Shown here: positions 1,309 to 12,163 of the stretch, piece after piece
How the letters are laid out: each line of letters opens with the position of its first letter
Position numbering within the stretch: position 1 is the first letter of the stretch
Notes under the pieces: generated by a model
What the model was told of the DNA's origin: nothing
What the model saw: only the letters and a program-made list of their open reading frames with translations
The model's database searches: none
From: a bacterium
Lineage (GTDB): Bacteria > Myxococcota_A > UBA9160 > SZUA-336
Reading direction: 5' to 3'
Assembly: GCA_024226335.1 (NCBI GenBank)
Contig: JAAELY010000499.1
Span: 1 to 60,584 of the forward strand
Length of the DNA: 60,584 nucleotides
Made by a program: the position numbers and the translations under genes

Positions 1309-2520
1309 TCAGCCGCGGCGGTCGATCTCTGCGGCGTAGCGCAGATCGGCCAGGAACTCGGGCAGCGCGGCGCTCACGCGGTGCCAGTTCGGAATCAGGC
1401 GCTTGGGTGCGGGATCGCCCACGAATGTCAGGCCCGCACCGCGCAGACCGGACGTGAAGGTCTCGACCATGAGTTCTTCGTCGTGCTGGTCGAAGCGCAA
1501 TCCGTTGATCAGCGCGTCGTCCGCGTAGGAAGAAACCGTGTCCTGGGCCTGGCGCAGATAACCGGCGCACAGGGTGTTCAGGAAACCCGCATCGAACTGC
1601 ACGCCCACACTCGCCAGGTTGTGGAACAACGTCGATGCGATATCGATCACCATGCGGTGCAGACCGCGCGTGGCGTCCTCAGCGGATAGCTCCTGATGCT
1701 TGTGATCGTAGTTGTCGCAGAGTTCCACCTGACAGATTCGATGGGGTGAAGCGGTGCGGAATACTTCGGCGAGTAGACCGATCTCCAGACCCCAGTCGCT
1801 TGGAATGCGTACCTGACGCGCCAGGGCGGTCTTCATGGCGAACTCTCCGGCCAGTGGATACCGGAAGCTCGAAATGAATCCAATGAGCGGTAACTCGGTC
1901 AGAGTCTGCTTGAGGGCGGCCAGTAACGGGGTCAGGAAAAGGCGCGTCACACGACCGTGAAGTCGGTCGGTCGCTCTGCCGTAGTAACCCTTGCAGTAGT
2001 CGTAGTCGAGATTCGGATGGATGACGGGAAAGCAAAGGCGCGCCAGAAACTCGCGGTCGTAACTCAATACGTCGCAATCGTGGAATGCGAGTGCGTCGGT
2101 CTGGCCGCGCGCCAGCGCGTAGCCGGCACCGATCCAGACCGCCCGGCCCTTCCCGTCCGGCCCTGGCGCCAAACCGCTGGAACGCAACTGATTGAGCAAC
2201 TCGCCCACGGTCGGACCGCTGCTCCAGATGCAGAGCGCGTTGGGCAGGGCTTCGAAGTATTTCTGAACGTCCCGGAACTTTTCCGCGTCCGCGGTCCCCG
2301 AGACGCTGACGATCACCTCCTGCAGATAGGTGACCTCACGCAAGACCTCGAGGATGCCCGGGAGCCCGGGTCCCTGGATCTCCGTGTACAGACAGGGCAG
2401 CACCAGCCCCATGGGCCGGTCGCGCGCGAAGTGTTTCAACTCGCCCTCCAGGCGGCCCACATTGGGGGGGCCCAGCCGGTGCAGGGTGGTCGTCGCTCCG
2501 CTCTGATGGAAATCGCTCAT
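1309..2520 (-). CDS. glycosyltransferase, glucosyl-3-phosphoglycerate synthase-like
   Basis: The 403-residue protein resembles GT81-type glucosyl- or mannosyl-3-phosphoglycerate synthases, which transfer a sugar from an NDP-sugar to 3-phosphoglycerate in making glucosylglycerate-type solutes. Visible features are an N-terminal GT-A segment, the metal-binding DCD motif at 148-150 within a FHDCDVLSYD context, a KGYYGR segment and the acceptor-side YPLAGEFAMK segment. The length suits the family. It starts at ATG 2520, with the patatin gene divergent only 32 bases away. The exact donor and acceptor cannot be read from the sequence. Cytoplasmic. Confidence 0.8.
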   Translation of the reverse strand: MSDFHQSGATTTLHRLGPPNVGRLEGELKHFARDRPMGLVLPCLYTEIQGPGLPGILEVLREVTYLQEVIVSVSGTADAEKFRDVQKYFEALPNALCIWSSGPTVGELLNQLRSSGLAPGPDGKGRAVWIGAGYALARGQTDALAFHDCDVLSYDREFLARLCFPVIHPNLDYDYCKGYYGRATDRLHGRVTRLFLTPLLAALKQTLTELPLIGFISSFRYPLAGEFAMKTALARQVRIPSDWGLEIGLLAEVFRTASPHRICQVELCDNYDHKHQELSAEDATRGLHRMVIDIASTLFHNLASVGVQFDAGFLNTLCAGYLRQAQDTVSSYADDALINGLRFDQHDEELMVETFTSGLRGAGLTFVGDPAPKRLIPNWHRVSAALPEFLADLRYAAEIDRRG

Positions 2521-2552: not shown

Positions 2553-3554
2553 ATGACTACGCTCCGCCTCATGCAGCCTGGGAGCAAACGCAGCCAGAAG
2601 CGGCACACGCTCGGCCTGGCCCTGGGCGCGGGCGGTGCCCGAGGACTCGCCCATGTCGGGGTTCTGAAGGCTCTCGGCGAAGCCGGCGTCCAGATCGATG
2701 CGATCGTGGGCACGAGCATCGGCGCTCTGGTCGGAGCGATCTACGCCGCAGGCCAGCTCGAGAACTTCGAACGCCAGGTGGCGGAACTCGAATGGGCCGA
2801 TGTGATGCGCCTTTTCGATCCGGTCTGGCCCCGCTCCGGGCTCGTGTCGGGCGAGCGCGCCACAGAGTGGCTCCAGGGCCTGCTGGGCGATTGGCGCATC
2901 GAAGACCTGGCGATCCCGTTCGCCGCCGTCGCCGTCGATCTGGTGACCGGCGAAGAAGTCCTGATGGACAAGGGGCGCGTGGTCGACGCCGTGCGTGCGA
3001 GCATCTCGATTCCCGGCATCTTCGTACCCCATCGCATGGGCAAGCAACTGCTCGTAGATGGCGCGTTGCGCAATCCGGTACCGGTTTCGGATCTGGAATC
3101 CTTCGACGTCGATGTTCGAGTCGCAGTCAATCTGCACGCCCAACCGGTCCGCGAGATCATCTCGCGCAAGACGAACGGCACGAAACTCAGCATCGGCGGC
3201 CGGGTGTCGGAAACGATCGAGAAGGGACTCGCGCGTTTTCGCCGCAAGGGCAGCCGCTCCAATGCCGGGGCCGTAAGCGACGAGAGTGGACCGAATCTCT
3301 TCGAGGTCCTTACCGCATCGATGACGGTACTGGAACACGAACTCGCCCGGCACCGTCTGGCCAATGACCCCGTCGACGTGGTGATCGCACCCGATGTGCG
3401 CGGAATCCGCGCGCTGGAATTCCACAAGAGCAAACGCGCCATCCAGGCCGGGCACCGGGAAGTCGCTGCCCATCTGGACGACATCGAAGCCGCTCTCAAG
3501 CGCAGACGCCGAAAGCGTACGCGCCGTTACTGGTCGGCGGGCTCGATCTCGTGA
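2553..3554 (+). CDS. patatin-like phospholipase
   Basis: A 333-residue patatin-family serine lipase or acyl hydrolase. The oxyanion-hole motif GAGGARG is at about 26-32, the nucleophile lies in GTSIG (Ser55), and the catalytic aspartate is in VDGA (Asp169), giving the complete Ser-Asp dyad. The architecture matches bacterial RssA/patatin proteins, with a basic C-terminal tail (KRRRRKRTRR) that may contact membranes or nucleic acid. There is no signal peptide, so it is cytoplasmic or membrane-peripheral. ATG 2553 is used, and Met7 is an alternative start. Its 3' end overlaps the convergent PilZ gene by 28 bases. Confidence 0.88.
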   Translation: MTTLRLMQPGSKRSQKRHTLGLALGAGGARGLAHVGVLKALGEAGVQIDAIVGTSIGALVGAIYAAGQLENFERQVAELEWADVMRLFDPVWPRSGLVSGERATEWLQGLLGDWRIEDLAIPFAAVAVDLVTGEEVLMDKGRVVDAVRASISIPGIFVPHRMGKQLLVDGALRNPVPVSDLESFDVDVRVAVNLHAQPVREIISRKTNGTKLSIGGRVSETIEKGLARFRRKGSRSNAGAVSDESGPNLFEVLTASMTVLEHELARHRLANDPVDVVIAPDVRGIRALEFHKSKRAIQAGHREVAAHLDDIEAALKRRRRKRTRRYWSAGSIS

Positions 3555-3883
3555 GGCTCCGGCAGGTACTGCTGGAGCAACTCGAGTACCTCCGGATCGA
3601 TCTCCAGGAATGACAATCCCAGTTCCTGGGTAAACGTGTCGAGGTCCGTGACGCGCACCAGTTCGCCGACGATGTCGACGGTCTTGTCGCCCAGCGTCAG
3701 CGATACGCGTATCCGCTCACCGACCTGGAGATCCAGGCCGACGGTCTGGAAGCGAATCCCGCCGATCGAAACATCGAGGGCCTGGGCCAGGCTGTCGCCG
3801 GAATCCACGCGGGCGATCGACACCAGGGATTCGGTGTGTACGCGATGGAATTTTCTTCGTTCGTCGCTGCTGTCTTCGGCCAC
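3527..3883 (-). CDS. PilZ domain protein
   Basis: A single-domain PilZ protein of 118 residues, a likely c-di-GMP receptor. The N-terminal RRKFHR supplies the RxxxR motif and DVSIGG supplies the (D/N)xSxxG motif, the two parts of the c-di-GMP site; both are intact. A beta-barrel segment and an acidic C-terminal helix follow. It starts at GTG 3883 behind a GGAGGAG ribosome-binding site and is divergent from the RND adaptor gene. What it controls is not visible; PilZ proteins often act on motility, envelope or secretion systems. Confidence 0.88.
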   Translation of the reverse strand: MAEDSSDERRKFHRVHTESLVSIARVDSGDSLAQALDVSIGGIRFQTVGLDLQVGERIRVSLTLGDKTVDIVGELVRVTDLDTFTQELGLSFLEIDPEVLELLQQYLPEPHEIEPADQ

Positions 3884-4001: not shown

Positions 4002-5183
4002 GTGCCGAGGGTTTTTCCTCACGCGCGAGGCTTCTCGAAGAGCATTCGAGGAGTTCTTGCCCTGCTGCTCGCCGTTGTCGCAACGAGCTGTTCCGACACC
4101 GCCGAGAAGAAGGGGCCGCCGGATTCGAAAGACAAGGCGACGCCTGTTGCGGTCGTGCGCGTGGTGCAAGAGCGCGTGGAGGGCGCTTTTCTCGAGCGAG
4201 AGGCCACGCTCCATCCCGTTTCACAGGTCGTTCTTTCGACGCGTCAAGAAGGCTTCGTGTTGTCGCGCCACATGGAAGACGGCGACACGTTGCACAAGGG
4301 CGACCTGGTCGTCGAGATCGATTCGACCGAACACCGCCTGGAACTCGCCGAACTGCGCGCGGCCGTGCGCAGGACATCGGCGACCCTCGACGACGCACAA
4401 CGCGCACTTGCGCGCACCCAGGCGCTGTTCAAGAAGAACGTGATCTCCGAGGGCGAGCGGGACGATAAGCGGACGGCACTCGCACGCGCCGAAGCCGACG
4501 TCGCCGAAGCCCGCGCCCGACTCACGCGCGGCGAGGAAGCACTTCGCGAATTCTCGGTGCGCGCACCCATGGACTCTGTGGTCTCGGATGTCTTCCTGGA
4601 AGCGGGCACCTATCTCGAACGCGGCGACAAGATCGTGCACCTCAAGCGCATCGACAATATGCTGGCCGTCGCCAGCATTAGCGAACGCTACCTGTCACAG
4701 ATCAAAGAGGGCATGCCGGTCGAGGTCTCCGTTACGGCCTTCCCCGGCCGAACCTTCGAAGGACTGCTCTGGAAGATCATCCCAGACGCGTCACTGGAAA
4801 GCCGCAGCTTTCCCGTACGCATTCTGGTGCCCAACCTCCGGCACGAACTCAAACCGGGCATGTCTGCAAGTGTGAAGTTCACTCACGAAATCCACGACGC
4901 CCTCCTGGTGCCAAAAGATGCAGTGATCGGCTCGAAGGCTCACCCGTACGTCTTCATCGCGAGCGAAGAACACGCAGAAAGGCGCGAGATCGAGATCGGT
5001 CAGGCCGTCGGCGACCGTTGGCATGTGCTGTCGGGCCTGACGACCGAAGACTGGGTCGTGGTCACAGGCAACGAGGAACTCTCCGAGGGCCGCGAGATCC
5101 AGATCGTAGACCTGCCCACTCCGGGTCTGCCCAAGCTACCCACCCAGCTCGAAGCAGGACGCCCCGAAGCTTCGGATTCCTGA
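4002..5183 (+). CDS. RND efflux periplasmic adaptor (HlyD/AcrA family)
   Basis: A 393-residue membrane-fusion protein linking an RND pump to an outer-membrane channel. It has a hydrophobic signal ending in a lipobox-like VVATSC (Cys30), so it is probably a lipoprotein. A lipoyl/barrel-sandwich half follows, then a long alpha-hairpin (about 110-165), the second barrel half and beta-barrel domains. It starts at GTG 4002 with only a weak ribosome-binding site. The pump gene begins 24 bases downstream and forms its operon partner. No TolC-type gene is adjacent. Substrate unknown. Confidence 0.88.
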   Translation: MPRVFPHARGFSKSIRGVLALLLAVVATSCSDTAEKKGPPDSKDKATPVAVVRVVQERVEGAFLEREATLHPVSQVVLSTRQEGFVLSRHMEDGDTLHKGDLVVEIDSTEHRLELAELRAAVRRTSATLDDAQRALARTQALFKKNVISEGERDDKRTALARAEADVAEARARLTRGEEALREFSVRAPMDSVVSDVFLEAGTYLERGDKIVHLKRIDNMLAVASISERYLSQIKEGMPVEVSVTAFPGRTFEGLLWKIIPDASLESRSFPVRILVPNLRHELKPGMSASVKFTHEIHDALLVPKDAVIGSKAHPYVFIASEEHAERREIEIGQAVGDRWHVLSGLTTEDWVVVTGNEELSEGREIQIVDLPTPGLPKLPTQLEAGRPEASDS

Positions 5184-5207
5184 GCGCGTCGCGGAGGTCG
5201 TCAAGGA

Positions 5208-8200
5208 ATGAAGCTCGTCGAGGTCTCGATCCGCTATCCGGTGAGCGTGATCGTCGGCGTGTTGTTCTGCGCCACCTTCGGAATCCTGTCGTTCTACCGG
5301 CTGCCCGTGCAGCTGATCCCGACCGTCGACAAACCAGAGATCTCGGTCGAAACCTGGTATCTCGGCGCAGGTCCACTCGAGGTCGAAGAAGAAGTCACGG
5401 CCCGCCAGGAGGAACTGCTCAACACCCTCGAGAACCTGAAGGAGATGCAATCCACCTCCTCGGAGGGTCGCAGCCAGATCGTACTCAAGTACGAGTGGGG
5501 TACGAACAAGGACGTCGCGCGCATCGACGTATCTGAAAAACTGGCGGCCGTTCGCGACCTTCCGGATGACATCGAAGAGCCGATCGTGCGCGCGGTCAAC
5601 TCCGTCGAGCAGTCGCCCGTAGGCTGGATCGTCTTGCTCGCCCCCGGGCAGGACCTCAACGATGTCCGCCCCTATGCGGACGACGTCATCAAGCCGCAAC
5701 TGGAGCGCGTTGCGGGAGTGGGCCAGGTCTGGTTCTTCGGCGGCGAGGAACGCGAAGTCCACGTAACGGTCGATCTGGCGGCGCTCGCACAACGCGGCAT
5801 CTCGGTCGACCAGGTTCGCCAGGCCCTGATCCAGGAGAATCGAACGATCAAGGCGGGCGGTTTCGACGAAGGCAATCGCCGCTACGGTGTGCGCACCGAG
5901 GGTCGATACCGACGCCTCGAGGACATCGAACAGACGATCGTCTCGCGAGATGCCTTTGGCTCGATCCGCGTCAAAGACGTGGCCGATGTCGAAATGAGCA
6001 ACGAGGAAAGAACTTTCGTCATCCGCCAGAGCGGCGAACCGGCAATCATCTTTGGCGCCATCCAGAAAACGGGTTCGAACACCCTCGACGTGATGACCAA
6101 GGTGCGCGAAGTCGTCGATCAGGTCAACGAGCGCAATCGCGACCGCGGCATCGAGTTGCGCCTGGTCTACGATGCCTCGATCTACATCGAAGAAGCACTG
6201 GCCCTCGTGCGTTCGAACGTGGTCCTGGGCGCGGCGCTCGCGATCGCCGTCCTCTTGTTCTTCCTGCGCAGCGGTCGCGCGATTCTCGTGCTGGGACTTT
6301 CGATCCCGATCTCTCTGATCTCGACATTCATCTTCATGGCGGCTCTCGGTCGATCGCTGAACATCATCTCACTCGCAGGCCTGACCTTCGTGACGGGCAT
6401 GGTGCTCGACAGTGCAATCGTGGTGGTGGAGAACGTCTTCCGACATCGAGAAATGGGCAAGGGCGCGGCGCGGGCCGCGGGAGACGCAACCACAGAAGTC
6501 TGGGGTGCCATTCTCGCTTCGACACTCACGACGCTGGTCGTCTTCTTGCCGGTCCTCCTGATCGAGGACGAGGTAGGTCAGATCTCCCGGGACATGGCGA
6601 TCGTGATCTCGATTGCGGTCGCGTTGTCGCTCTTCGTGTCCATGACCGTGATCCCGATGCTCTCGGCCAACCTGCTCAACAAGCCGCTTCGAGAGTCGAT
6701 TGGCGGTCGACTCGTGGGCCGCTTCTCTTTGTGGCTGACCGCCAAGGTGGACTGGATCCTGAAAGAGAACTGGCGCAAGGTCGCCGTGATCGTCGGTATT
6801 CCGATCGCGGCGCTCGTCATCGGCCGGGTCAGCCTGCTCGACCGGGACTACCTGCCGGAAGGCAACCGCAACCTGGTCTTCGCCTCGATTCGCACCCCAC
6901 CCGGCTATAACCTGCCCCAGATCGAACGCATTATCGGTTCCGCCGAAAGACAGATTCTCGCCCAGCCCGAGGTCTATCGAATGTTCTCGGTGGTGCGCTA
7001 TGAGCGAGCTTTCCTCGGAGTCGTTCTCAAAGAGGAACATAAGGACAAGCAGACGCTTCAGGCCTTCGTCGACACCGTGAGGGGAATCGTCACGGGGATT
7101 CCCGGGGTCAAGGGCGCCGGCGTCAGTCAGATGCCACTGATCCGCACCGGCAGAATCGGTGGGGGCAAGATCAATCTCGTCGTCACCGGACCCGAACTGA
7201 GGCAGATCCGCAAGATCGCAGACGATATCGAGTTCGACCTGGCAAAGGTCGACGGCGTGACCTTCACCGACGTGAGTTTCGAAGAAGGCAAGCCGGAGTA
7301 CGTGGTCGATGTGAATCGCGCGCGCGCCTCCGAGGTCGGACTGTCGGTTTCTGAAGTCGGAACGGTGGTCGAAGCCTCCGTCAACGGTCTGCTCGTGGGA
7401 ACCTACGACGATCAGGGCCGCGAGATCGATCTGCGCCTGCAAGCGCCCAAAGGAGCGGTCACCAGCGACCGCGAACTCGGCCACATCGTGCTCGACACGC
7501 CCGCCGGCCAGACCATCCAACTCGCCGACGTCGCGCGAGTCGATGCACGGGCAGGACCGACCAAGATCGAGCACCTGGACATGGACCGGATCGTGAAGGT
7601 CTCCCTGGGCATCGAAAAAGAGCTACCGCTGGGCACGGCCGTCGCCAATCTGGATGAGGTCTTGCGTGGGCATCGCGCCAGGCTCCCGTTGGGCTACGCC
7701 GTGGAGTTCACCGGAAATGCCGCTGACCTCGCGAGCACCGAACTTCAACTCTACGGCGTGATCGCCCTGGCGATCTTCATCACCTATCTACTGCTCGCCA
7801 GCCTTTTCGAGTCGTTCACGCTTCCGCTGGTCATCATCATGACGGTTCCGTTCGCCGTCACCGGTGGACTGGTCGGGCTCAAGCTCCTGTCGGCCTTCGA
7901 TTCCAGCGTGAAACTCGACACGATCACGATGATGGGCTTCGTCATCCTGATCGGGGTCGTCGTCAATAGCGCGATCCTCATCGTGCATCAGACCCTGCTG
8001 CGACTCGACGAAGGTCTGGAACTGAACCAAGCCGTCCTCGACGGGCTGTCGAGCCGTGTCCGGCCGATCTTCATGACCACGTGCACGACCGCATTCGGCC
8101 TACTGCCTCTGGTACTTGCGGCAGGATCGGGTTCCGAACTCTATCGCGGTCTCGGAGCGGTGCTGGTATCGGGACTGATCGTCGCCATGATCTTCACGAT

Positions 8201-8282
8201 GGTGCTGATTCCGACGCTACTGTCCGCCGCCCTCGGCTTCCGCCAGCGCGCACCCTCGGGGGTCGCCTCAGAACAGCCGTAA
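5208..8282 (+). CDS. RND efflux pump permease (AcrB/HAE1-like)
   Basis: The 1024-residue inner-membrane transporter has the RND layout: TM1 near residues 10-30 (IRYPVSVIVGVLF), a large periplasmic porter domain, a TM2-6 bundle at about 335-500, a second periplasmic half and TM8-12 at about 840-1010. The segment GMVLDSAIVVVENV in TM4 carries the conserved aspartate of the proton relay, and GVVVNSAILIVHQ is its second-half counterpart. AAGG ahead of ATG 5208 is the ribosome-binding site. It works with the adaptor encoded just upstream. It overlaps the convergent polymerase-like gene by 15 bases. The substrate range cannot be deduced; drug or lipid export is likely. Confidence 0.92.
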   Translation: MKLVEVSIRYPVSVIVGVLFCATFGILSFYRLPVQLIPTVDKPEISVETWYLGAGPLEVEEEVTARQEELLNTLENLKEMQSTSSEGRSQIVLKYEWGTNKDVARIDVSEKLAAVRDLPDDIEEPIVRAVNSVEQSPVGWIVLLAPGQDLNDVRPYADDVIKPQLERVAGVGQVWFFGGEEREVHVTVDLAALAQRGISVDQVRQALIQENRTIKAGGFDEGNRRYGVRTEGRYRRLEDIEQTIVSRDAFGSIRVKDVADVEMSNEERTFVIRQSGEPAIIFGAIQKTGSNTLDVMTKVREVVDQVNERNRDRGIELRLVYDASIYIEEALALVRSNVVLGAALAIAVLLFFLRSGRAILVLGLSIPISLISTFIFMAALGRSLNIISLAGLTFVTGMVLDSAIVVVENVFRHREMGKGAARAAGDATTEVWGAILASTLTTLVVFLPVLLIEDEVGQISRDMAIVISIAVALSLFVSMTVIPMLSANLLNKPLRESIGGRLVGRFSLWLTAKVDWILKENWRKVAVIVGIPIAALVIGRVSLLDRDYLPEGNRNLVFASIRTPPGYNLPQIERIIGSAERQILAQPEVYRMFSVVRYERAFLGVVLKEEHKDKQTLQAFVDTVRGIVTGIPGVKGAGVSQMPLIRTGRIGGGKINLVVTGPELRQIRKIADDIEFDLAKVDGVTFTDVSFEEGKPEYVVDVNRARASEVGLSVSEVGTVVEASVNGLLVGTYDDQGREIDLRLQAPKGAVTSDRELGHIVLDTPAGQTIQLADVARVDARAGPTKIEHLDMDRIVKVSLGIEKELPLGTAVANLDEVLRGHRARLPLGYAVEFTGNAADLASTELQLYGVIALAIFITYLLLASLFESFTLPLVIIMTVPFAVTGGLVGLKLLSAFDSSVKLDTITMMGFVILIGVVVNSAILIVHQTLLRLDEGLELNQAVLDGLSSRVRPIFMTTCTTAFGLLPLVLAAGSGSELYRGLGAVLVSGLIVAMIFTMVLIPTLLSAALGFRQRAPSGVASEQP

Positions 8283-9317
8283 CTGGCGATTGTCGCCGCT
8301 GTCGGAAACGCTGCGAAGCCGGGTCACCTGCAGTTTCAGGCGGCGTGCGCGACGCACGCCCGCGCGGGCCCTCACCAGGAGTTGCAACGCCACCTCGGCA
8401 ATTTCAGCGCGCGTGCTGATCGCTGGATCGACGGACTGAGTACGTGTGATCTGCGTACCATCCACGTAGGCGAGACCGAGCGTCAGAGTGCCGGCAGCGC
8501 GACGTTCGCGCGCGAGCAGGGTCTCGATCAGGCCCGCGAGTTCCTGGATTTCTTCACCTAACGAACGCAAGTCCACAGTCGGCTCATCGAGCGTGCGCTC
8601 CTGCGAGATCGACTTTGGCCGCGGATTCGGTTTGAGTGGGTCGTCGTCTTCACCCCTCGCAAGTTGCAAGAACTGATCGGCATTGCGCCCGACGATCTCT
8701 TTCAACTCCTCCACGGCGAGGTCTTGCAGGTCGGAAATGCGCTGAAATCCGCTTTCGGCCAGTTTCTCTGCGCTGCTCGGACCCAATCCCCAGATCTCGG
8801 TGACCGCGAAGCCGCCCAGGAATTCGCGCACCTCATCGAGCTTCACTTCTCGAAGACCCGACTCGCCCGAGTGATTCGCGGCCATGTACGCCACGTACTT
8901 GCTCGGACCGATGCCCGCGCATGCAGCCAGTCCCAGTTCGGTCTTCAGACGCACACAGAGTTCAGCGGCCGTCGTTACGGGATCGACGGAAGGCAGCGGT
9001 TCGATGAAGGTACCGCCGGGCTTGAACTCCTCGATGCGTTCGTGTTCGTTGCGCAATAACGCCCGGATCTCCGCGCCAACCTCGCGGTAGCGCTTGAGAC
9101 GCGTGGGCCGGATTTCCGCTTCGGGGCACAGCTTCAGGGCCTCTTCCACCCGCATGCCCGTGACGATGTCGAACTGGGCCGCCTCACGGCTCACGCTCGT
9201 GACCGTTCCGCGTTTGCCGGGATTGCCCCCGACGATCACGGGGCGGCCGCGCAAGCCGCTGTCATCGGCCTGTTCAATGACCGCGTAGAACCCCGGAACG
9301 TGGATATAGACGATCAT
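8268..9317 (-). CDS. Y-family DNA polymerase homologue lacking catalytic residues
   Basis: The 349-residue protein follows the DinB (Pol IV) layout: palm/finger region, thumb, helix-hairpin-helix near WGLGPSSAEKL and a little-finger domain. Aligned with E. coli DinB, the metal-binding Asp8 and Asp10 positions are His6 and Pro8, and Asp103-Glu104 are Gly101-Gly102. The fingers arginine of the YxARxFG-type motif is also gone (SREAAQFD). It should therefore not polymerise DNA. The C-terminus ends in QLRLF (345-349), a beta-clamp-binding motif. This resembles ImuB, the inactive scaffold of the ImuA-ImuB-DnaE2 mutasome, but the protein is shorter and more DinB-like, and no imuA or dnaE2 is nearby. 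ATG 9317 is the only plausible start. Confidence 0.85.
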   Translation of the reverse strand: MIVYIHVPGFYAVIEQADDSGLRGRPVIVGGNPGKRGTVTSVSREAAQFDIVTGMRVEEALKLCPEAEIRPTRLKRYREVGAEIRALLRNEHERIEEFKPGGTFIEPLPSVDPVTTAAELCVRLKTELGLAACAGIGPSKYVAYMAANHSGESGLREVKLDEVREFLGGFAVTEIWGLGPSSAEKLAESGFQRISDLQDLAVEELKEIVGRNADQFLQLARGEDDDPLKPNPRPKSISQERTLDEPTVDLRSLGEEIQELAGLIETLLARERRAAGTLTLGLAYVDGTQITRTQSVDPAISTRAEIAEVALQLLVRARAGVRRARRLKLQVTRLRSVSDSGDNRQLRLF

Positions 9318-9374: not shown

Positions 9375-11747
9375 TCAGTCACCCGTCGGTCGCAATTCCC
9401 ACTTTCCAACTTGATGATAGGAAACATCGCTCCAGTGCATCCACAGGGGCCGCGCGCGACCCGCCAGCCAGTCCTGGAGCGCATCCGAATAGTTGGGGTG
9501 CCCGGCGTGCCCCGACTGTCCACCGGCCAGACCGATCTGCGCGTGGTCAGCATCCGACATATCGACGGCGTAGCGAAGCGCCGGTCCCACTTCCGCCTCG
9601 TTCTCGGGCAGGCTGCGGTGGTACATCGTCCAGGCAGAATCGGGCCCCCCGGCCGCCGGAAACGGGCCCAACCCCAGAGGTTGTCCGGCCAGCTGTACGC
9701 GCCCGATACCCAACTTCTCGAAGTCGTGCTTCAAACGAACCTGGTGTAGGCGCCCCCAGTTCCATTTCTTTGGATTGGAACTGACGTGCGTGCGCATATG
9801 ACGCCAGGTGTCGTCGAGGGCTTGCTCGACCACGCCCTTCAACTGGCGATCGCGTGCGCGGTCCAGATAGCGCGCCAGCACGATGCCCGGCAACGGACCC
9901 GTGTTCGCAGTGATCTGCTCCAACCGCTCGTCGGCCTTCTCGAAGCGGTCCTGCAAAAGCCGCACGGTGAGCCGTTGACGAAACACGTGATAGACCGACG
10001 CGCCAATCGAGTCCTCGACCGCGCGACCATCCCAATCGAGCAGGAGCGTTCGAATACGTCTGGCGTGCTCGGCCGTGGGTTCGACATCATCGACCAGATA
10101 GCGAACCGTCGAGCGGCCGCGATGGGAGCCGCGGTCTCGCTGAACCTCCAGTACGCGTTCCAGATCGATGTGCCGACTCGACGAAAGCAGCCCGCCGATG
10201 CGCCGGGCCCCCGCGGGACTGCTCCACAGCCAGACGATCGGAGCCTTGAAATCCGCAGCGTCGGGATGCGTCGACACGACGATCCACGGCTTGTCGCCAT
10301 ACGAACTGGGCAGACCGTCAAAATCCATGAATCCACGCCAGTCGTAGAAACTCGAACCGCCGGTCACCGGCAGCAGACCGGTCTCGATTGCGCGCACCGG
10401 CAGATGCCCAGCGACTTGCGTACCGATATGGCCTTCGCGATCCGCGTACAGGAAGGTCGCTGCTGGGGCGGGCAGCCGCCTCAGACTCTTGCGGAATTCG
10501 TCCCAATCGCCCGCGCGCTGCACGCGCAACAGCGCTTCGAAACCACTGCGCTTGTGATGCCCGGTCCAGCGCAGCGCAAGCGTGTGCACGCGCGTTTCTT
10601 CGGGCTCCATGGAGCGGAGTACCGGTCCGTGATGGGTCGAAAGAACTTCGACCTCGAGAGGTTCGGCGTCCTTGATCTGTATGGTCTCGACCCGACGAAC
10701 GGCCTTGCGCCAGCGACCATTGCGATCGAAACGCAGTGGATCGGTCGGATGGAAGGTCTCATCGAAGAGATCCGACACGCTGGCGTGTAGCGCGACCTGA
10801 CCCCAGGCGATCTCTCCGTTGTTTCCGGCAAAGAACAGCGGAACCCCCGGCCAGGTTGCACCGGACACGTTGTCGTCGTTCACGCGCAGATGCGCCAGAT
10901 AGAAGAGTGCGGGAACGCCGAATTGCACGTGTGGATCGTTTGCGAGAATCGCCCCACCCGTGGCCGAGCGCTCCGACGAGACGACGAAGCCCAGGCTGCC
11001 CACGGGTCCGTTCATGCCGACGATGCTCGCCAGCCGGTCGGCCGCCTTGCCGAGTTCGAGAACGGGCCCCAGCGGGTCGTGGGCTCCGTCCTCGGGTCGG
11101 GTCGGGAAGAAATCGCGCGCGGGTACGCCTCCTACTTCGCGCACCAACTGATCGAGCAGGAGACTCGCACCCAGAGAACGCCCGGTGTTCCAGGCGCGCA
11201 GGCGCAAGATCGCGAGTGTATCGGCGGGGCTCCAGGGTTCGGGTTCGTACTCCAGGAACTCGAACTCGTAGGGCAGCGGCGCCTCGCCGCTGCGAAGGTG
11301 TTCGATCCAGGAGTTCACGCCGGCGGAATAGGCATCGAGTGTCCGGGCTGCGGATCCGGACAACTGCGTCACCTCGGCCTCGGCATCGCGTCCCAGACCC
11401 AGGGTTCGAACGAGGCGATCCTCATCGACGGTACTCGCCCCAAACACCTCGGAGAGCGTTCCACGTGCGGCTCGACGCAGCATCTCCATCTGCCAGAGCC
11501 GATCCTGAGCGTGGACGAAACCGAGAGCCAGGGAGGCATCGTCGCTGCGCGTCGATTTCACATGCGGCACGCCAAGGGGATCACGCAGGATTTCCACGGC
11601 TTGTGCCAACTCGGGAATCACGCGGCTACCGCGCGCCTCCGGCCCTTCCTTCTGGGTTCCGGCGCGAAACGACCACCACTCCACCACGGCAACGATTCCG
11701 GCCAGCACAGCCACCAGCGCCAGACCCCGCATCAACCAGCGTTTCAT
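9375..11747 (-). CDS. penicillin acylase family N-terminal nucleophile hydrolase
   Basis: A 790-residue precursor of the penicillin/AHL acylase family, which cleaves amide bonds of penicillins, acyl-homoserine lactones or related N-acyl compounds. ATG 11747 follows a GGAGAGG ribosome-binding site and gives a signal anchor (MKRWLMRGLALVAVLAG). The alpha-chain motif LGVPHV and FVHAQDRLWQMEMLRR are typical. The predicted self-cleavage site is at GPVG/SLGFVV, with the serine becoming the beta-chain nucleophile and ANDPH following. Most relatives have Asn after this Ser; here it is Leu. It should mature in the periplasm. Its start overlaps the acpS stop by four bases, so the two are translationally coupled. 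Substrate not known. Confidence 0.87.
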   Translation of the reverse strand: MKRWLMRGLALVAVLAGIVAVVEWWSFRAGTQKEGPEARGSRVIPELAQAVEILRDPLGVPHVKSTRSDDASLALGFVHAQDRLWQMEMLRRAARGTLSEVFGASTVDEDRLVRTLGLGRDAEAEVTQLSGSAARTLDAYSAGVNSWIEHLRSGEAPLPYEFEFLEYEPEPWSPADTLAILRLRAWNTGRSLGASLLLDQLVREVGGVPARDFFPTRPEDGAHDPLGPVLELGKAADRLASIVGMNGPVGSLGFVVSSERSATGGAILANDPHVQFGVPALFYLAHLRVNDDNVSGATWPGVPLFFAGNNGEIAWGQVALHASVSDLFDETFHPTDPLRFDRNGRWRKAVRRVETIQIKDAEPLEVEVLSTHHGPVLRSMEPEETRVHTLALRWTGHHKRSGFEALLRVQRAGDWDEFRKSLRRLPAPAATFLYADREGHIGTQVAGHLPVRAIETGLLPVTGGSSFYDWRGFMDFDGLPSSYGDKPWIVVSTHPDAADFKAPIVWLWSSPAGARRIGGLLSSSRHIDLERVLEVQRDRGSHRGRSTVRYLVDDVEPTAEHARRIRTLLLDWDGRAVEDSIGASVYHVFRQRLTVRLLQDRFEKADERLEQITANTGPLPGIVLARYLDRARDRQLKGVVEQALDDTWRHMRTHVSSNPKKWNWGRLHQVRLKHDFEKLGIGRVQLAGQPLGLGPFPAAGGPDSAWTMYHRSLPENEAEVGPALRYAVDMSDADHAQIGLAGGQSGHAGHPNYSDALQDWLAGRARPLWMHWSDVSYHQVGKWELRPTGD

Positions 11748-12163
11748 GCCCTCTCCGTTCCGGTGGAAAGCGACTCGAGCACCACCTGGGCCACCGCGTG
11801 TCTGCGGGTCCAGGACGCATCGACCCAGGCCCGCTCGAAACCGCGTTCCCGGGCAATCTCGAGCGCACGAGCGTGCAAGCGCAGCTGGAGACCGCGTGGC
11901 GTTTCGAGGATCTCGAAGTCCGTCCAGGCTACGCCTCGTCTCCAACCCGTACCGATCGCTTTCATACCGGCTTCCTTAACGGCAAAGCGCAGCGCAAAAT
12001 GGCGTCCCGAACGAGCCCGGCGTTCGCAATCCCTGCGTTCCTGGGGCGTAAACAGGCGCTGGCGTATACGGTCGCCGCGGCGCTCCAGCGCGAGTTCGAC
12101 CCGCGCGATTTCCTGGATGTCGATGCCGGTACCGATGATCACATCGCGGAGGCTAGCCCGCAT
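11744..12163 (-). CDS. acpS: holo-[acyl-carrier-protein] synthase
   Basis: A 139-residue AcpS-type phosphopantetheinyl transferase, which moves 4'-phosphopantetheine from CoA to a serine of acyl carrier protein. The metal-binding IGTGIDI is at the N-terminus; FTPQERRDCE and RFAVKEAGMKAIGTG are the second conserved block, with the catalytic Glu in VKEA. It starts at ATG 12163 with a poor ribosome-binding site. Its ATGA overlap with the acylase gene is unusual, since acpS more often sits with pdxJ or nnrD. It is divergent from gap. Confidence 0.92.
   Translation of the reverse strand: MRASLRDVIIGTGIDIQEIARVELALERRGDRIRQRLFTPQERRDCERRARSGRHFALRFAVKEAGMKAIGTGWRRGVAWTDFEILETPRGLQLRLHARALEIARERGFERAWVDASWTRRHAVAQVVLESLSTGTERA

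Follow-up and report, generated by a model that had tools for sequence, protein, structure and literature searches.

Background

Catalytically inactive Y-family proteins besides ImuB are already known from bacteria (PMC6511836). In a 2026 survey, proteins without catalytic residues are dispersed or fall into diffuse groups, RecA-NT is found in most groups, active and inactive alike, and the inactive iPolYs are presented as partners of DnaE2 that can bind RecA (PMC12926913). The iPolY groups described in these articles (PMC6511836, PMC12926913), i.e. the scDinB2-like, gbDinB2-like and Kyrpidia type proteins, lie near the PolY-core and carry a QxxLF motif, as does the protein reported here. As described there, they also possess RecA-NT, partner with DnaE2 with or without ImuB-C and occur in genomes without imuA/imuB, which sets them apart from it. 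Inactive Y-family proteins described from bacteria have been interpreted as scaffolds of a mutasome, to which they bind RecA/ImuA and DnaE2.

Here, we analyzed a 349-amino-acid DinB-like protein, referred to as iDinB, that is encoded in a 60,584-nucleotide stretch of DNA (the window; GenBank assembly GCA_024226335.1, contig JAAELY010000499.1) from a bacterium of the GTDB lineage Bacteria; Myxococcota_A; UBA9160; SZUA-336. The protein shares its fold, domain order and C-terminal clamp motif with DinB (DNA polymerase IV, PolY-core), but it lacks metal and triphosphate ligands in every ortholog, with R49 lost in most. With ImuB (ImuB1/ImuB2), it has in common a dead Y-family core, a clamp motif, the loss of D8, D103 and E104 and the exchange of D10 for proline. 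However, ImuB continues beyond the clamp motif with a long extension (RecA-NT, ImuB-C) and is encoded with imuA/dnaE2, whereas the iDinB chain stops with the motif and its gene lies elsewhere, among acylase, PilZ and glycosyltransferase-like genes, in a genome that carries a separate ImuB on contig C551. Membership of iDinB in ImuB was therefore ruled out by architecture and linkage. The survey covered the genomes of one phylum, in which the class that harbors iDinB is represented by fragmented assemblies.

Results

The iDinB gene (8268..9317, minus strand, stop codon included) starts with an ATG at 9317 and runs uninterrupted for 349 codons to a stop codon at 8268-8270, which bears out the open frame of the original prediction, on the minus strand. 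Its product matches the Pfam families IMS (E=5.6e-27), IMS_HHH (E=9e-6) and IMS_C (E=1.8e-15) in this order, which places it in the Y-family (impB/mucB/samB) fold. The best matches in PDB and NCBIfam are all polymerase IV. Searched by sequence, PDB gives 7yll at the top (E=3e-42), and the NCBIfam polymerase IV models match strongly but give at most 180 bits, under every curated cut-off (256 or more). The view that the protein is more DinB-like than ImuB is supported.

Aligned to E. coli DinB, D8, M9 and D10 are replaced by H6, V7 and P8 (residues 6-8, HVP; 9294..9302, minus strand) and D103 and E104 by G101 and G102 (residues 101-102, GG; 9012..9017, minus strand), so that none of the three triad acids (D8/D103/E104) is left. 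On the triphosphate side, Y46, R49 and K157 are replaced by R44, A47 and G151, the second of these being the predicted loss of the fingers arginine. The original prediction had read His6, Pro8 and Gly101-Gly102 as lost metal ligands. All of these changes are seen in the alignment, but D10, despite its conservation in the Y-family, does not coordinate metal, which is the task of D8, D103, E104 and a backbone carbonyl.

The DNA-side segments expected to remain are present, as the IMS_HHH and IMS_C matches indicate, and the palm and fingers of the fold are kept as well. The thumb with its helix-hairpin-helix comprises about residues 161-225 (8643..8837, minus strand; IMS_HHH at 161-188, HHH_5 at 173-210), and the little-finger domain covers residues 234-348 (8274..8618, minus strand). 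Among the iDinB family members compared with Pfam, 24/27 match IMS_HHH and 27/27 match IMS_C. An AlphaFold2 model of the window protein has a mean pLDDT of 92.7 and a pTM of 0.82, and Foldseek matches it to the Y-family polymerases DinB, Dpo4 and REV1 (E about 1e-31). The net charge of the thumb is -8 in the window copy, compared with a mean of -1.6 for the iDinBs of the class and about +0.8 for active DinBs. With such a reduced positive charge in the thumb, iDinB could bind DNA only weakly, and the DNA grip of the window copy may be altered. The little finger of iDinB equals that of active DinB in basic charge.

The last five residues (345-349; 8271..8285, minus strand) form the predicted sliding-clamp-type motif QLRLF. 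They belong to the C-terminal ten residues modeled with a pLDDT below 50, as is usual for a peptide motif. A QxxLF-type motif is conserved in 50/50 orthologs, most often as QLDLF (26), followed by QLRLF and QLELF (7 each), and is more canonical than the QLxLP found in most active DinBs outside the class. Only 0-11 residues (median 2, n=50) follow it in iDinB, compared with a median of 55.5 in the intact DinB of the class, in whose tail a RecA-NT-like stretch is recognizable by eye. Lacking a C-terminal extension, iDinB therefore also lacks RecA-NT and ImuB-C.

The loss of the active site is a property of the family. In an alignment of 50 iDinB orthologs and 40 active DinBs from the phylum, the complete D8/D103/E104 triad is present in 0/50 of the former and 40/40 of the latter, and three further members (G021, G025, G043) likewise lack it. 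Y46 and K157 are missing from all 50 orthologs and R49 from 35 of them, while all three are kept in 40/40 active DinBs. Position 8 (E. coli numbering) is variable, with E, H, Q, L and others, positions 103-104 read GA, DA, DG, GG, AG and AA, among others, and the position of E104 is acidic in 1/50. The exact His/Pro/Gly-Gly combination is thus not a family signature; only the proline at position 10 (P8 of the window protein) is nearly constant (47/50, 94%), next to V7 in 45/50. Further residues newly fixed in iDinB are T72 and R78 (100% each), K35 (96%) and E79 (94%). The dN/dS ratios of five iDinB pairs are 0.18, 0.09, 0.08, 0.34 and 0.15, and together with the acid losses common to the 50 orthologs they support the proposed selection for a role other than polymerization. 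That 50 orthologs share both the loss of catalytic residues and the C-terminal motif indicates that this loss is more than chance. Acids at both positions 8 and 103 occur in 2/50 orthologs. Selection against metal binding was considered for this rarity and set aside, as independent tree pairs gave no support and G021 carries E and D at these positions.

All ten genomes searched from the same family had matches to the window protein, nine of them full-length with 49-57% identity and one (G002) as fragments only. In other families of the class, the identity is about 32-40%. Of the class genomes with iDinB, nearly all give more than 300 bits with an iDinB profile. Outside the class, the matches drop to at most 337 bits, and 20 high-scoring ones inspected within the same phylum are all intact DinB. 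iDinB-type matches occur in 51/53 class genomes with at least 90% completeness, and iDinB was not found in the other two (G011, G391). The search of viral contigs gave no iDinB match, and the plasmid matches among those listed are ordinary DinB with about 32% identity.

The original prediction had called for a tree. With the catalytic columns removed and ImuB left out, 30 iDinBs form one clade (bootstrap 100, SH-aLRT 100), and the intact DinB of the class falls apart from it. In an earlier tree that included ImuB, the latter was placed near the dead clade with a branch length of 1.25. A kinship of ImuB and iDinB is not claimed from this placement, which could reflect long-branch attraction because the ImuB branch is very long and both proteins are free of active-site constraint.

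The genomic neighborhood is conserved as well. Across families of the class the gene order is acpS, acylase, iDinB, PilZ and a glycosyltransferase-like gene. In the 19 genomes in which a simple gene caller recovered iDinB, it mostly follows a penicillin-amidase gene directly, acpS often lies ahead of this pair and divergent from gapdh-pgk-tpiA-secG, and PilZ and then the glycosyltransferase-like gene usually lie downstream. In the window, the upstream neighbor is a penicillin amidase-family protein with an uncertain start codon (9375..11945, minus strand; PF01804, E=6e-174), and the group is headed by the holo-ACP synthase gene acpS (11744..12163, minus strand; PF01648), which is kept in several relatives. 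The PilZ-domain protein (3527..3883, minus strand; PF07238), whose gene immediately follows iDinB in most relatives, is separated from it in the window by an RND efflux pair on the plus strand (4002-8282), consisting of a membrane-fusion protein and a 1024-amino-acid RND pump, the gene of the latter being convergent with iDinB and overlapping it by 15 bases. A 403-amino-acid protein (1309-2520, minus strand) without a Pfam match at E<=0.001 is conserved in 27/33 regions of this neighborhood; we take it to resemble a glycosyltransferase, possibly a glucosyl-3-phosphoglycerate synthase. The acylase/PilZ context is absent around solo active DinBs of other classes. From this conserved locus, we infer that the iDinB gene is old and vertically inherited. 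Its neighbors belong to metabolism or the cell envelope and do not point to a repair function, and matches in the window to a Myxococcus-type LexA box consensus are at chance level (18 seen, 19.8 expected).

The absence of imuA and dnaE2, initially taken as a mark of this locus, holds for the window and not for the genome. The source genome has three IMS-domain genes, encoding intact DinB (C47), iDinB (C499) and ImuB (C551, 535 amino acids), and it also encodes DnaE2, likewise on C551, as well as an ImuA-like protein (C240). Therefore, the absence of a mutasome does not distinguish iDinB. The distinguishing facts are its end at the clamp motif and its retention in genomes that lost imuAB-dnaE2. 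DnaE2, ImuB and active DinB each occur in the majority of genomes with iDinB. In G017, however, tkt-dinB-purN-metF-adoK are contiguous where relatives carry imuAB and dnaE2 in between, and iDinB is present. This loss of imuA, imuB and dnaE2 is clean (G017:C65, L151), in a 2.2-Mb genome with a single DnaE. In G025 and G021, iDinB is the sole Y-family gene detected, next to one DnaE, and in G025 tkt lies inside a 166-kb contig with none of the other cluster genes nearby. Both are 91%-complete metagenome-assembled genomes, so the absence of dinB-imuAB-dnaE2 is likely rather than certain, and G017 is the cleaner case. Its retention in these three genomes suggests that iDinB is not dependent on the ImuA-ImuB-DnaE2 complex, and perhaps on no translesion synthesis (TLS) polymerase whatsoever.

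Two side observations concern other Y-family genes. In several families of the class, as at L074 (G034:C5), L072 and L155, intact DinB is clustered with imuA-imuB, dnaE2, pepF and transketolase, possibly as a combined TLS locus, and carries a C-terminal RecA-NT-like extension, recognized by eye and without a profile match. Near an intact DinB on G008:C97 (L104), a further UmuC-like Y-family protein is encoded (AVVECNDFFVSCERVF).

Discussion

The best explanation, to which we assign a probability of roughly 70%, is that iDinB is a class-wide, vertically inherited and catalytically dead DinB paralog that would serve as a DNA-binding, clamp-tethered accessory without needing a DnaE2 mutasome. The narrower statement that it is a catalytically dead, clamp-binding accessory is somewhat more probable. 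Because the residues for copying are lost, the clamp tag is kept and nearly the whole class retains the gene at one place, iDinB probably has a non-copying job at the replication machinery.

That the window copy is simply a recently broken dinB, as its lack of catalytic residues could suggest and as the original prediction named as its refutation, is practically ruled out: 50 orthologs from many families share this state with open frames, dN/dS values of 0.08-0.34 and the conserved new residues P8, T72, R78 and E79. It is also very improbable that iDinB keeps a weak or altered chemistry by means of other acids, such as the Glu at position 8. Of the 50 orthologs, 22 do have an acid at position 8 and 17 have one at position 103, and G021 has E at the former and D at the latter, but acids at both positions coincide in only two of the 50, the position of E104 is non-acidic in 49, Y46 and K157 are lost in all of them, and the window copy is devoid of all three acids.

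Two further explanations grant that the protein is dead. It could be a DnaE2-mutasome scaffold that brings DnaE2 to the clamp, like ImuB or the iPolYs (scDinB2, gbDinB2 and Kyrpidia type). The logic of a dead Y-family protein with a clamp motif is shared, the exchange of D10 for proline is also found in ImuB (8/9), DnaE2 is present in most genomes with iDinB, and iPolY-DnaE2 modules are described in the literature (PMC6511836, PMC12926913). Nevertheless, we regard this role as improbable, as iDinB has no C-terminal extension and hence neither RecA-NT nor ImuB-C, is unlinked to dnaE2 where ImuB is already there for DnaE2, and was kept in G017 after the clean loss of imuAB/dnaE2 and in G025 and G021 with their single DnaE. 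Somewhat less unlikely is that iDinB competes for the clamp cleft and does no more than restrain active DinB and DnaE2 in this way, as a natural dominant-negative of TLS. Its frequent QLDLF motif (26/50), more canonical than the QLxLP of most active DinBs outside the class, and the coexistence of active DinB in most iDinB genomes would fit such competition. However, iDinB is retained in G025 and G021, where active DinB, ImuB and DnaE2 were not detected, and unless these assemblies are incomplete, restraint of TLS cannot be its sole role. Both explanations are weakened by this pattern of retention.

iDinB differs from the described iPolYs in that it has no RecA-NT, occurs alongside ImuB in most genomes and is kept with a single DnaE in G017, G021 and G025. 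The accessible parts of the two surveys mention no DnaE2-independent inactive PolY that is devoid of RecA-NT and conserved throughout a class (PMC6511836, PMC12926913). These surveys are based on complete or representative genomes and the class is represented here by fragmented assemblies, so iDinB may have been missed. As a purely functional comparison, eukaryotic REV1 is a Y-family protein whose scaffold role matters. Its transferase active site is intact, and it also has a BRCT domain and a C-terminal domain that binds polymerases; iDinB possesses none of these.

As a predicted clamp adaptor, iDinB would bind DNA through its thumb and little finger and dock on the beta sliding clamp with its C-terminal peptide, while dNTP and metals would not be bound productively. 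It could then sit on the clamp and on primer-template DNA without synthesizing any and, together with the core replisome, control access or protect the end. A specific function at the core replisome, as a factor for polymerase switching or protection, is a tentative suggestion. Equally speculative is the most far-reaching version, namely that all chemistry disappeared from a DinB paralog in a single event, in the common ancestor of most members of the class. The protein would then have turned into a nearly universal core-replisome accessory that binds clamp and DNA and can do without DnaE2, ImuB and any active TLS polymerase, a prokaryotic Y-family protein acting as a scaffold only and outside all described mutasomes.

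iDinB has no RecA-binding tail, is about as widespread in the class as active DinB and was kept after the mutasome was lost. It offers a clean test of how a dead Y-family protein acts at the clamp. If the proposed role is true, the polymerase fold would be reusable as an independent reader of clamp and DNA.
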